From a virus: DNA of 21,251 bases. Both the position numbers and the translations under genes were made by a program. The stretch is from positions 1 to 21,251 of the IMG/VR virus record IMGVR_UViG_3300020420_000070; one strand, written 5' to 3'. Under the pieces are notes generated by a model. It did not search any database. It had not been told where the DNA came from and saw only the letters and a list, made by a program, of their open reading frames with translations. Positions within the stretch are counted from its first letter, which is position 1. Each line of letters begins with the position of its first letter. This document shows, piece after piece, positions 741 to 4,441 of the stretch.

Positions 741-769
741 TTGACAATGTTCTCAGAACATGGTATAGT
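741..769 (+). promoter_or_regulatory. Strong sigma70-type promoter with palindromic spacer
   Basis: The -35 element is TTGACA (741-746), the spacer is exactly 17 bp (747-763) and the -10 element is TATAGT (764-769). Transcription would start near 776, giving a leader of about 24 nt before the ATG at 800. A perfect inverted repeat with one central base (ATGTTCT-C-AGAACAT, 747-761) fills almost the whole spacer and looks like an operator for a dimeric regulator. Promoter confidence is high. The operator role is an inference from symmetry and position. Confidence 0.8.
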
Positions 770-799: not shown

Positions 800-1000
800 A
801 TGAAAACATTTTTCGCAACATCAATTGAACATCTTGTGACCACTAAAGATGGTGACAAGTTCATTGTGAGTTCTAATTTTGTTGGTAGTGATGGCGACAC
901 TGCAAAAGAATCAGTTGACAATGCAATCGCTAGTTATGAAAAAGCTGGTCACACCGCTGACGATTTGATGTCTATCACCACAGTTGAGTTGGATGCGTAA
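800..1000 (+). CDS. Small hypothetical protein (66 aa)
   Basis: This is the first gene after the promoter at 741-769, with a purine-rich ribosome-binding site (AAAGAGAGAGAA, about 785-797) before the ATG. The product is a small acidic soluble protein. Two beta-strand-like stretches (IEHLVTTKDGDKFIVSSNFV) are followed by an amphipathic helix (AKESVDNAIASYEKAG) and a short acidic tail. No known motif is recognised. Its TAA stop (998-1000) overlaps by one base the ATG of a 51-codon membrane ORF, so it heads a tightly overlapping cluster of four small genes ending at 1596. Confidence 0.65.
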   Translation: MKTFFATSIEHLVTTKDGDKFIVSSNFVGSDGDTAKESVDNAIASYEKAGHTADDLMSITTVELDA

Positions 1001-1155
1001 TGAATTCTTGGTTAGGTGAAATAATCGGATACATCTTTATCGCTGTATTCGCATTTGGTTGGATGGACACATTGTGGATATTTGGTGTAGAAAACTCCAA
1101 GGAATATACTTGGTGGTTTTTAATTCAACAACTAGGAGAGTATTTTAATGCCTAG
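1000..1155 (+). CDS. 51-aa single-pass membrane protein (small ORF)
   Basis: This frame runs from the ATG at 1000-1002, which shares a base with the preceding stop, to TAG at 1153-1155. The peptide starts MNSWLGEIIGYIFIAVFAFG and has one convincing hydrophobic segment at about residues 7-29, followed by a Trp-rich amphipathic tail (YTWWFLIQQLGEYF). It would be an inner-membrane protein of unknown role; superinfection exclusion or host-envelope modulation are possibilities only. Without it, 147 bases would lie empty in an otherwise packed cluster. It overlaps the next ATG by 8 nt. The overlap at both ends and the coherent membrane segment support it as real. Confidence 0.6.
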   Translation: MNSWLGEIIGYIFIAVFAFGWMDTLWIFGVENSKEYTWWFLIQQLGEYFNA

Positions 1156-1420
1156 GATATGGGAAACAAATCCAAATATGTTGATACCATATTATTTGAT
1201 GTTCTCATATCTTTACTATGAAAAGAATATTTCCTTGGTTGATGATGGAGAGTTTGATGCTATGTGTAAGACACTACTAGAAAAATTAGATTCTCTTACA
1301 CATATGCACAAACATCTAATTACAAAAGAATCCTTGACAGCAGGAACAGGCTATGATATAAAGTATACAAATCTAATTAAAGATAGTGCAGAGAGATTGA
1401 GGAGTACATGGAAGAATTAA
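1148..1420 (+). CDS. Small hypothetical protein, weak DNA-ligase domain Ia-like pattern (90 aa)
   Basis: The start at ATG 1148 is supported by AGGAG at 1133-1137, which lies inside the overlapping membrane ORF. The protein is mainly helical. Residues about 15-45 (YYLMFSYLYYEKNISLVDDG, then EFDAMCKTLLEKLD) loosely resemble the N-terminal Ia segment of NAD-dependent DNA ligases, where a Tyr-Tyr helix is followed by a Ser-Asp-x-Glu-Tyr-Asp turn. No adenylation-domain lysine motif follows, so it cannot be a ligase by itself. The resemblance is from memory of the family pattern and may be coincidental. It overlaps the next ORF by 13 nt. Confidence 0.6.
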   Translation: MPRIWETNPNMLIPYYLMFSYLYYEKNISLVDDGEFDAMCKTLLEKLDSLTHMHKHLITKESLTAGTGYDIKYTNLIKDSAERLRSTWKN

Positions 1421-1596
1421 AAGTTACATATGAGTGGTATACGCCTGGCGGAAGGTGTAGAAGATTTTGGGATACTGCAAGGGGTGAAACTCAAATGATT
1501 GCAATTGATAATATCAAGAAAGTAATCAAGAGAAGAATACGACATGAGTATTACAAAGTATTAGAAATGAAATTTGAAAAAGGTATTGACAAATAA
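1408..1596 (+). CDS. Small basic hypothetical protein (62 aa)
   Basis: The ATG at 1408 lies inside the end of the preceding gene and is preceded by GAGG at about 1398-1401. The product is basic and begins with a strand-rich segment (ELKVTYEWYTPGGRCRRFWD). A helix loaded with Lys and Arg follows (NIKKVIKRRIRHEYYKVLEM), so nucleic-acid binding is possible but unproven. No family is recognised. The -35 box of the downstream promoter (1586-1591) lies within its last codons, so this gene's 3' end and the small RNA unit downstream overlap physically. Confidence 0.6.
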   Translation: MEELKVTYEWYTPGGRCRRFWDTARGETQMIAIDNIKKVIKRRIRHEYYKVLEMKFEKGIDK

Positions 1597-1614
1597 AACG
1601 AATCAGTATATACT
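1586..1614 (+). promoter_or_regulatory. Sigma70-type promoter of a putative small RNA
   Basis: TTGACA (1586-1591), a 17-bp spacer (1592-1608) and TATACT (1609-1614) form a near-consensus promoter. A perfect 12-bp palindrome, CAGTATATACTG (1604-1615), covers the -10 box, where a bound regulator would block transcription. The predicted start is near 1621. No convincing gene follows before the terminator at 1670-1698. Confidence 0.75.
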
Positions 1615-1620
1615 GTAAGT

Positions 1621-1698
1621 ATAGTCAAGAGTGGGTGTCCGAAACTTGAATATTAAAAAACGAGGACTCAAGAGGAAACTTCGGTTTCCTCTTTTTTT
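1621..1698 (+). ncRNA. Putative small non-coding RNA, about 78 nt
   Basis: The element is bounded by a near-consensus promoter (1586-1614) and an intrinsic terminator (1670-1698), with no supported reading frame between. Short complementary segments suggest structure. CTTGA (1645-1649) can pair with either of two copies of TCAAG (1625-1629 and 1668-1672), the copies being part of a TCAAGAG direct repeat. GTCC (1637-1640) can pair with GGAC (1664-1667). Pairing 1625-1629 with 1645-1649 together with 1637-1640 with 1664-1667 would make an H-type pseudoknot. It matches no RNA family that I can name and is not a tRNA. It could be a trans-acting small RNA or a 3' UTR product shared with the upstream operon. 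All structure statements are by eye. Confidence 0.55.
1670..1698 (+). terminator. Rho-independent terminator
   Basis: A perfect 10-bp stem (AAGAGGAAAC, 1670-1679, with GTTTCCTCTT, 1684-1693) closes a TTCG tetraloop (1680-1683) and runs into seven T residues (1692-1698). It would end both the small RNA and any read-through from the promoter at 741-769, insulating the late genes from the accessory block. Confidence 0.9.
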
Positions 1699-3981
1699 AT
1701 GTGCGAACTAAATATACGCATGATAAATTACTTTCAAGGACATGATGGATTCGTATGGTTCACTGGAGTTGTTGAGGACAGAAATGACCCAACAAAACTA
1801 GGTCGTGTGCGAGTGCGTTGTGTCGGTTACCACACAGATGATAAAATAAAAATACCCACAGAAGATTTACCTTGGGCATGGGTATTACAAACAGTTCACA
1901 CACCATCAATGAATGGAATGGGTCATACGCCTGGCTTTCTTGTAGAAGGAACATGGGTAGTAGGATTCTTTCGTGACCCAGAAATGTTACAAGAACCAAT
2001 TATACTTGGTTCACTGCCTGGAGTTCCAGAAGAATTAGGTGACCCTAATACTGGATTTCATGACCCCAATCGCAGAGAAACAAATCCAGAACTTTCTGGA
2101 TATAATACTTCTGTCTATCCACGCACGACTGGAGAACCAGATACAAATCGTCTTGCACGAAACTTTGAAGTACAAGATACAATTGTCGGTGATAAAAAGG
2201 CTGGTGTGATTGAAGGTATTCGTAGTGCAGATGGAACTACCTACGATGAACCCACAACAACATATAATGCAACATATCCAAAGAATCATGTATTTGAATC
2301 TGAGGTAGGACACACTACAGAATTTGATGATACGTCTGGTGCAGAAAGAGTAAGTCAATACGCACACTCTGGAACATTCTATGAGATTGACGCTGTAGGA
2401 AATCGTGTAGACAAAGTTGTATCAAATGATTATCATCTTGTCAAGGGAGATAATTTTGAACACGTTCAAGGCGATATGCATCTTACAGTTGAAGGAACTC
2501 TGAATATAAAATGTAAGAAACTAAACGTAGAAGTTCTTGAAGATTATAATGAAGATGTAGGACAAAACAAAACAATTAAGATTGAAGGAACATTATCTAA
2601 CGATATTAATGGTGATGTTCTAGAAACATTCAATGCATCATATACACAAAGTATTCATGGAAATATAGATTTACGATTTGGTGCAGAAGATGGTACGTTC
2701 TCAGAACATATTAAATCAGATATCACAAGAAACTATAGTGCAAAGGTTCAAGAGTTTCTAAAAGAAACATATGAACAAAACATTACAGAGTCATCTACCA
2801 TTCGTATTGGTACGACTCTCGACATGGATATTACTGGAGATGTAACTCTAGATGGTTCTACTGTAAAAATAAACCAACCAAGTGGAACACAAAACGCAGC
2901 TCGTAAAGGCGACTCTGCTGATACTGGTGATGACCCACCAGGCACTTCTGGAACTGATGGTTCTAACGTAATTGAGTCTGGTTCTGGAACTGTTTTCATT
3001 GGTGACACAAGTGATGTTACAGAACCAACAGAAGTTACAGAGACAGATTTAGTGGACGTTATTCTTCCAGAGATATTAACCTCTGAACCTAAGTCATCAA
3101 CAGTCGGTGGTGCTGGTGATGATGACCCAGAAGAAGAGGATGATGACGGAGTTACAAGAAGTCTTTCTCCTACTGCTGGAAGAAGTGGTGGTGCAGTTTC
3201 CGCTGGTGGTTCTGGTGCAGAGAGTGGTGCAATTCCAGAAAATGCGATTACAACGCCAGGCGATTGTACAAGACCAGACTTAGGTTCACAATCAGAACGA
3301 TATGAGTCAAATGGTAACCCAGGCGCAATCAATACAAAGTCTGCATCAAAAGATAGAGGTGGTTGGTCATATGGTTCTTATCAGATTGCAACAAAGGTTG
3401 GAACATTTAAAAGTTTTATGTCTTTTCTTGCAAAAGAAGATAATGGATATACGGACTTTAATACGAGTTTAACTAATGTTGGTGGTAATGCAGCTGCAAC
3501 AAGGGGTGATGTTAGTTTCCGAAACAAATGGAAAGAACTTGCAAAGAGTGATGCAACTGCAACAAGGTTCAAACAAGCACAACATGACTTTATTCAAAGA
3601 ACACATCATGACCCAGCAGTTCGTGCAATTGCAAAAGATACTGGAATAGATGTTTGTGATGGTTCACACAGTAATGGATTACAAGATACAGTATGGAGTA
3701 CAGCAGTTCAGTTTGGGCCAGGCGGTGCAAGAAAAATATTCAGAGAAGCACATACAAGTCTAAAACAAAAGAACGCAAGAAAAGACCCACCAGTTACAGT
3801 TATAACAGATGCAGACTTAATTAACGAGATACATGATATTAAGATTAATACAGTTCCAACTAGATTTAGAAGTAGTCCAGCACTTCATGGTGGATTAATA
3901 AGTAGATTTAAATCTGAAAGAGGTGTCGCACTTGCGAATGCTGGAACTGGAAGTACCACTGCATCCAGTACGATTGTATAA
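1699..3981 (+). CDS. 5: Baseplate hub/tail spike protein, gp5-like, with C-terminal lysozyme-like domain
   Basis: This is the central spike of the contractile-tail baseplate, which pierces the outer membrane and locally opens peptidoglycan. Residues about 18-108 (FVWFTGVVEDRNDPTKLGRV through EPIILGSLPG) form the gp5 OB-fold. Residues about 190-400 have the short regular strands of the trimeric beta-helix needle. An acidic Gly/Ser linker spans about 400-525. Residues about 526-740 look lysozyme-like: RYESNGNPGAIN includes E536, a plausible catalytic acid, and DRGGWSYGSYQIA (552-564) follows. T4 gp5 is 575 aa with its lysozyme between OB-fold and needle; here the enzyme is C-terminal. Coordinates use the longest frame, but ATG 1699 follows the terminator T-tract without a ribosome-binding site, so ATG 1720 is at least as likely. 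The hub assignment is firm; the enzyme class is inferred. Confidence 0.88.
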   Translation: MCELNIRMINYFQGHDGFVWFTGVVEDRNDPTKLGRVRVRCVGYHTDDKIKIPTEDLPWAWVLQTVHTPSMNGMGHTPGFLVEGTWVVGFFRDPEMLQEPIILGSLPGVPEELGDPNTGFHDPNRRETNPELSGYNTSVYPRTTGEPDTNRLARNFEVQDTIVGDKKAGVIEGIRSADGTTYDEPTTTYNATYPKNHVFESEVGHTTEFDDTSGAERVSQYAHSGTFYEIDAVGNRVDKVVSNDYHLVKGDNFEHVQGDMHLTVEGTLNIKCKKLNVEVLEDYNEDVGQNKTIKIEGTLSNDINGDVLETFNASYTQSIHGNIDLRFGAEDGTFSEHIKSDITRNYSAKVQEFLKETYEQNITESSTIRIGTTLDMDITGDVTLDGSTVKINQPSGTQNAARKGDSADTGDDPPGTSGTDGSNVIESGSGTVFIGDTSDVTEPTEVTETDLVDVILPEILTSEPKSSTVGGAGDDDPEEEDDDGVTRSLSPTAGRSGGAVSAGGSGAESGAIPENAITTPGDCTRPDLGSQSERYESNGNPGAINTKSASKDRGGWSYGSYQIATKVGTFKSFMSFLAKEDNGYTDFNTSLTNVGGNAAATRGDVSFRNKWKELAKSDATATRFKQAQHDFIQRTHHDPAVRAIAKDTGIDVCDGSHSNGLQDTVWSTAVQFGPGGARKIFREAHTSLKQKNARKDPPVTVITDADLINEIHDIKINTVPTRFRSSPALHGGLISRFKSERGVALANAGTGSTTASSTIV
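1707..1714 (+). promoter_or_regulatory. Late-promoter-like motif near the gp5 start
   Basis: ACTAAATA resembles the CTAAATA variant of the T4-type late promoter core TATAAATA. It ends only 5 nt before the in-frame ATG at 1720. If used, the transcript would start at or very near that ATG. This is motif evidence only. Confidence 0.35.
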
Positions 3982-4000: not shown

Positions 4001-4441
4001 ATGGCAGTACAACCAGCATACAGAGATGCAGAAAGAACAAACGACTCCCCTCGTTCTGCACGAATATATAAAGATTTAAATCTGAACTTTGGTATCCATC
4101 CAGTTACCAAACAGATTAATACTTTGACTGATGCAGCTGCTGTAAAAAGAAGTGTTCGTAATTTAGTTCAGTATGGTTTCTATGAAAAACCTTTTCATCC
4201 AGAGATAGGTTCTGGAGTTCGTGATTTATTATTTGAAAATATGACACCCTTTGTTGCAAACAATCTATCAAAACAAATAGAAGAAATAATTACTAACTAT
4301 GAACCAAGAGCATTACTTGCTGGAGTAGAAGTAATACCAAGATTTGATAATAATCAATATGAGGTAATCGTTGAGTTTTATATTCAAAACGCACCAGCAG
4401 AACTTGTTGATTTATCATTTTCATTAGAGAGACTACGATAA
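4001..4441 (+). CDS. 25: Baseplate wedge subunit gp25
   Basis: This is a gp25-like (GPW_gp25 family) protein. In contractile injection systems it forms the conserved core of the baseplate wedge with gp6 and gp7 and links the baseplate to the sheath. The family pattern is clear: an N-terminal NFGIHPVTKQI (29-39), a helix with VRNL, and the hallmark YEKPFHPEIGSGVRDLLFE (61-79), ending in beta strands. At 146 aa it is close to the usual length (T4 gp25 is 132 aa). AGAGAGGT gives a good ribosome-binding site. Its stop overlaps the gp6 start by one base (TAATG at 4439-4443), so gp25 and gp6, which assemble together, are probably translationally coupled. Confidence 0.95.
   Translation: MAVQPAYRDAERTNDSPRSARIYKDLNLNFGIHPVTKQINTLTDAAAVKRSVRNLVQYGFYEKPFHPEIGSGVRDLLFENMTPFVANNLSKQIEEIITNYEPRALLAGVEVIPRFDNNQYEVIVEFYIQNAPAELVDLSFSLERLR

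Follow-up and report, generated by a model that had tools for sequence, protein, structure and literature searches.

On the stretch of viral DNA analyzed here (a 21-kb virus-record fragment of 21,251 nt, hereafter the window), a consensus early-type promoter upstream of the gp5 baseplate gene runs into an intrinsic terminator with no gene between them, which raises the question of what this unit (1586-1698) encodes. The window genes were those of a T4-like marine myovirus, comprising the gp5 hub, gp25, gp6, and more tail genes; the nearest isolates by gp6, namely Methylophilales phage Melnitz (56% identity) and the Pelagibacter phages HTVC008M and Mosig, infect abundant streamlined marine bacteria. 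The initial annotation had placed the unit at the boundary of the late genes, and it does lie with the small ORFs of an early operon on one side and gp5 on the other. We favor, with confidence slightly above even, the reading that it is an autonomous early gene for a small non-coding RNA (herein type A), carried by a limited set of marine T4-like phages.

Inspection of the sequence placed the -35 hexamer TTGACA at 1586-1591 and the -10 hexamer TATACT at 1609-1614, separated by a 17-nt spacer. The terminator stem (1670-1693) begins 55 bp beyond the -10 element, reads AAGAGGAAAC-TTCG-GTTTCCTCTT with perfect pairing, and is followed by a U-run ending at 1698. The proposal of a promoter-terminator unit without a gene and with a product of about 78 nt held up when the coordinates were verified, 1621-1698 being exactly 78 nt; the unit's own promoter and intrinsic terminator bound a predicted product within the 50-250 nt range considered for an autonomous phage small RNA. 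In pattern scans of 20 kb, this promoter was one of only two 11/12 matches and the terminator was the best present (10 pairs, U7). However, the site totals equaled those of shuffled sequence (81 vs 76 promoter-like and 10 vs 9.2 terminator-like), so that the unit is weak by pattern score alone and it is conservation that settles it. By sequence, the RNA has no translated and no credible ORF; no start codon had a spaced Shine-Dalgarno sequence, and only frame 2, with GTG or TTG starts, stays open over the length of the element, running through the terminator. Additionally, no likely gene was present opposite the 78-nt RNA.

Table 1. Coordinates of the promoter-terminator unit and neighboring features in the window.
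Feature	Position	Strand	Remarks
Early operon of small ORFs (800, 1000, 1148, 1408)	800..1596	+	Driven from consensus promoter TTGACA-17-TATAGT at 741-769
Sigma70-type early promoter TTGACA-17-TATACT	1586..1614	+	11/12 match; 29/29 same in L013, 28/29 in L014
Predicted 78-nt non-coding RNA, type A	1621..1698	+	Putative start 7 nt past the -10
Hairpin S1, TCAAG (1625-1629) / CTTGA (1645-1649)	1625..1649	+	Predicted fold
Possible pseudoknot GTCC (1637-1640) / GGAC (1664-1667)	1637..1667	+	Invariant in 3 sequences; unproven
A-rich linker, sole variable part of the RNA	1649..1656	+	Holds all 5 variable columns
Intrinsic terminator: 10-bp stem, UUCG loop, U7	1670..1698	+	Unchanged in L013 and L014
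CTAAATA, T4-type late promoter motif of gp5	1708..1714	+	5 nt before ATG 1720
gp5 baseplate hub	1720..3981	+	Listed ORF opens at 1699; conserved start 1720

With gp5 as query, a relatives search recovered L013 and L014, both of them contigs of marine viruses, in which the whole unit was present at the same genomic site. All 113 of its 113 columns aligned without gaps, at 94.7% (L013) and 95.6% (L014) identity, bearing out the expectation that the unit would be conserved in related phages and bringing the genomes that keep it to three; over 1620-1698, identity was 74/79 and 76/79, respectively. The five variable columns of the RNA cluster within 8 nt, and random draws of five positions from its 78 do so with p about 1e-4. 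Fourfold-degenerate sites of the two flanking genes were 75% (L013) and 70% (L014) identical, versus 94% and 96% for the RNA, which therefore diverges less than they do (Fisher p = 0.005 and 9e-5). When only the 49-nt body was compared with fourfold sites, the difference was significant for L014 (p = 0.005) but not for L013 (p = 0.097). No column varied outside the 8-nt linker (p = 0.0005 for L013 and 9e-5 for L014 against fourfold sites), in a test that is generous because the linker boundaries were set after seeing the data. That the RNA diverges less than nearby fourfold sites makes a constrained RNA gene likelier than debris, on the basis of three related phages and hence few independent events. 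Moreover, the upstream ORF at 1408-1596 was missing from L013 and L014 while the unit was kept, so conservation of the promoter is not owed to that gene. Anatomy, synteny, conservation, and the lack of coding capacity are direct observations for this unit.

The minimum-energy fold of the RNA consisted of S1 and the terminator hairpin, and the whole RNA folded only slightly better than shuffles (z = -1.36). The closing pair of S1 changes from U-A to U-G in L013, for which the favored fold of the RNA body also differs from that of the window, and no covariation was found among the three type A sequences known. Two TCAAGAG repeats had been proposed to compete for one CTTGA. Both copies (1625-1631 and 1668-1674) and the CTTGA are present, but in the window sequence the 5′ TCAAG paired with CTTGA at P = 0.96 and the 3′ TCAAG at P = 0.00, and the competing folds were rejected. 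The pseudoknot suggested between GTCC and GGAC survived in part; its bases are present and invariant and it is a possible element of the modeled structure, while an equally good one arose in 136/1000 dinucleotide shuffles of the body, which is not above chance, and covariation did not accompany it.

Database searches gave the type A RNA no known family. Rfam 15 returned none above the gathering threshold for the window, and at permissive thresholds the best sub-threshold score (GibS, 30 of 115 bits, E 0.023) was driven by the U-tailed hairpin and AT-rich text. The GenBank phage search did not find the RNA and returned only gp5 protein-coding similarity, while the GTDB genome scan had no match to it. 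Among IMG/VR contigs there was no other exact copy; an exact 16-mer scan recovered L013, L014, and two chance matches, and a looser pseudoknot pattern scan yielded 10 stretches, 8 of them chance and the only real ones those in the two known contigs. The RNA is of a form already known, with a sequence that has no match in the Rfam, GenBank phage, and GTDB searches.

The promoter itself belongs to a recognizable family. In a pattern search of viral contigs, a recurrent start consisted of TTGACA...TATAGTCAAGAG, then a purine-rich ribosome site, and then ATG, and the 1586 promoter shares the initial sequence TATAGTCAAGAG. Behind most of the other family promoters checked stood a ribosome site with its ORF, as for one in L006 (151-215), whereas the 1586 promoter leads to a terminator. 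Similarly, among promoters with an 11/12 match in the early region of the 51-kb contig of L013, those at 2597 and 3362 precede ORFs and that at 4048 leads to a terminator. Given these different outcomes, the 1586 unit appears to be an early-type promoter of the clade driving an RNA rather than a protein. For Melnitz, promoters of sigma70 type were assigned to the early class and TATAAAT to the late one (PMC9004378), and early timing of the type A RNA would follow from promoter type in the same way.

Two further features of this promoter family were observed. A palindrome, in its best form ATGTTCTCAGAACAT, lies inside the 17-nt spacer of early promoters of the clade in about 20 viral contigs (window 747-763; L190:2597 and 3362; L006:151-175; L225-L243) and is likely an operator for a regulator; the 1586 promoter is without it. 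In L119 (3096-3215) and L147 (reverse strand, about 7490), the TATAGTCAAGAG start leads to a long structured leader closed by GAGAGAC...GTCTCTC, for which Rfam had no match.

The early operon, in which a ribosome site precedes the ATG at 800, ends with a stop codon (1594-1596) that overlaps the RNA promoter. In the terminator scan, the 1670-1698 terminator was the only good one 3′ of this operon and likely ends it as well, so the suggestion that the RNA is a 3′ UTR product is partly true. Directly after the terminator comes the late motif of gp5, such that the terminator would split early from late transcription and gp5, having its own motif, would be independent of the 1586 promoter. The CTAAATA-N5-ATG spacing ahead of gp5 was constant in L001, L002, L006, L013, and L014, and gp25 and other genes had TAAATA upstream. 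This arrangement has no ribosome site, either in the window (1708-1722) or in those five contigs, and an identical layout occurred ahead of another gene in L027 and L031. For such an arrangement, T4 late promoter geometry puts the transcription start at the ATG itself, and the gp5 late mRNA may be leaderless.

These boundary features also underlie the main rival to an autonomous small RNA, namely that the unit is punctuation, the terminator closing the early operon, the promoter and leader being relics of a lost or replaced early gene, and the RNA a by-product. The first transcribed bases match the leaders of protein-driving sister early promoters (L006 151-215), the early ORFs lack another good terminator, and the terminator and CTAAATA region is common to phages with an unrelated RNA body. 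A relic should drift, however, and both the promoter spacer and the RNA body come close to the terminator in conservation and exceed fourfold sites. We consider punctuation with a relic promoter a tenable but rather unlikely account.

The unrelated body just mentioned came from sister phages. In L001, L002, L005, and L006, whose gp5 is 84-87% identical, the same place held a longer, different RNA-like unit with a UUCG terminator (type B). Searches with the upstream ORF and motif gave a set of 18 distinct type B versions, with carriers comprising L002, L006, L169-L186, and L197-L214 (examples are L002:20-150, L006:1715-1850, L173:3330-3560, L186, L197, and L209). Besides the terminator and a CAATC-TTCG-GATTG hairpin, this undescribed structured RNA has two helices (P1 and P2) and a loop-to-downstream pairing. 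Stems drawn for each sequence varied on both sides for P1 (TAGGC/GCCTA, TAGGTC/GGCCTA, TACGCAT/GTGCGTA), P2 (CTGAAT/ATTCGG, CTGAG/CTCGG), and the loop pairing (CACCC/GGGTG, ACCAAC/GTTGGT, GTCAAC/GTTGAT). In the imperfect alignment, 91% of cells pair and 4 pairs changed on both sides, a covariation score reached by 0/500 shuffles and by no slid control; these counts are conservative because MAFFT puts P1 wrongly in two sequences, for which reason the per-sequence stems were used as a complement. No Rfam family matched the type B stretches. Type B often had no promoter of its own nearby, although TTGACA-17-TATAAA precedes a version of about 280 nt in L005 and L178.

The two types are alike in their slot, for those type B units that precede gp5, in a UUCG-type U-tailed terminator, and in a hairpin loop that can pair downstream. 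In contrast to type A, type B is longer and unrelated in sequence, with extra hairpins and compensatory changes. With the terminator and late-motif flank in common and the bodies unrelated, one type probably replaced the other, and because sister phages keep a different, clearly structured RNA there, the slot repeatedly holds an RNA, which favors the autonomous small RNA. A doubtful extension of this is that RNAs are exchanged in the gap ahead of gp5, each lineage keeping one structured RNA, with both types forming an undescribed class of early phage RNA that acts on a common host partner. Type B was not adjacent to gp5 in L182, L186, and L197, where an opposite-strand glutamine riboswitch lay downstream. 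Riboswitches of this kind (RF01739) were located on the opposite strand near type B at L199:8954-9004, L186:3709-3760, L197:3238-3290, and L209:10400-10452; one in the window was rejected, the real instances being confined to some sister phages. A tmRNA reading was considered because Melnitz has a permuted tmRNA, and ARAGORN found no tRNA or tmRNA in the type A or type B stretches.

For the autonomous small RNA, we infer transcription, early timing, and action. The host polymerase, carrying the main sigma factor, would start at the 1586 promoter, as the consensus match of this promoter and its sister promoters suggest, and the terminator would stop it and set free an RNA of about 78 nt. In this RNA, an A-rich linker and perhaps a pseudoknot would lie between a 5′ hairpin and a stable 3′ hairpin with a U-tail. 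The same terminator would end the early operon and keep early transcription out of gp5 with its own late motif, while the freed RNA would act in trans in early infection on host or phage RNA or protein. Lambda OOP RNA and P22 sar RNA each have their own promoter and intrinsic terminator. At 77 nt and 68/69 nt, respectively, both regulate phage genes, and sar pairs with ant mRNA (PMC12197685). Type A resembles them as a short phage RNA with such a promoter and terminator but, unlike them, is in sense orientation with its neighbors, and the search for pairing at phage ORF starts gave no target; the complementarity to phage mRNAs raised in the initial annotation did not emerge, as duplex energies with ORF starts of the window and L013 were no better than those of shuffled RNAs. 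Few small RNAs of strictly lytic phages have been described, some of which are listed in a review, for example CfrI of cyanophage S-PM2 (PMC12197685). If the autonomous reading is true, a conserved early RNA with a structured replacement in relatives would offer a concrete handle on how such phages take over streamlined marine hosts at the RNA level.

Three other alternatives are unlikely. A short early-promoter transcript could form an R-loop and prime the leading strand, as at T4 origins, and the early promoter does lie in AT-rich DNA beside gene 5. T4 oriE is positioned near gene 5. It depends on an early promoter (PMC3016281) but, in contrast to oriE, the unit has no iterons, and there was neither a strand switch at the site nor, in either the window or the 51-kb relative, a change in GC skew, rendering a replication primer very improbable. 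We give still less credence to a gate in the manner of lambda pR′-6S-tR′, at which a phage antiterminator would override a constitutive promoter-terminator to transcribe gp5 onward. Lambda 6S RNA from pR′ is 194 nt and is overridden by Q, and the unit is similar in that a constitutive promoter, an early terminator, and late structural genes follow in one direction. However, such a gate supposes late genes that lack their own promoter, while gp5 has a conserved CTAAATA at fixed distance from its ATG, gp25 and others have TAAATA, and T4-like phages read late genes with gp55/gp33. Least probable is a leader peptide or non-stop mini-ORF within the transcript, as frame 2 is open across the element in L013 and L014 too (by eye) but its GTG/TTG start has no ribosome site at a suitable spacing, its stop codon is found only past the terminator, and the linker substitutions are not silent but change amino acids.

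Finally, we noted domains in two proteins of the window. In the listed gp5 ORF (1699-3981), an OB domain is accompanied by a VgrG3-like C-terminal domain (PF21277, E 7e-37), and the 90-aa ORF at 1148-1420 in the early operon matches the NAD+-binding Ia domain of NAD-dependent DNA ligase in stand-alone form (PF22745, E 3e-11).
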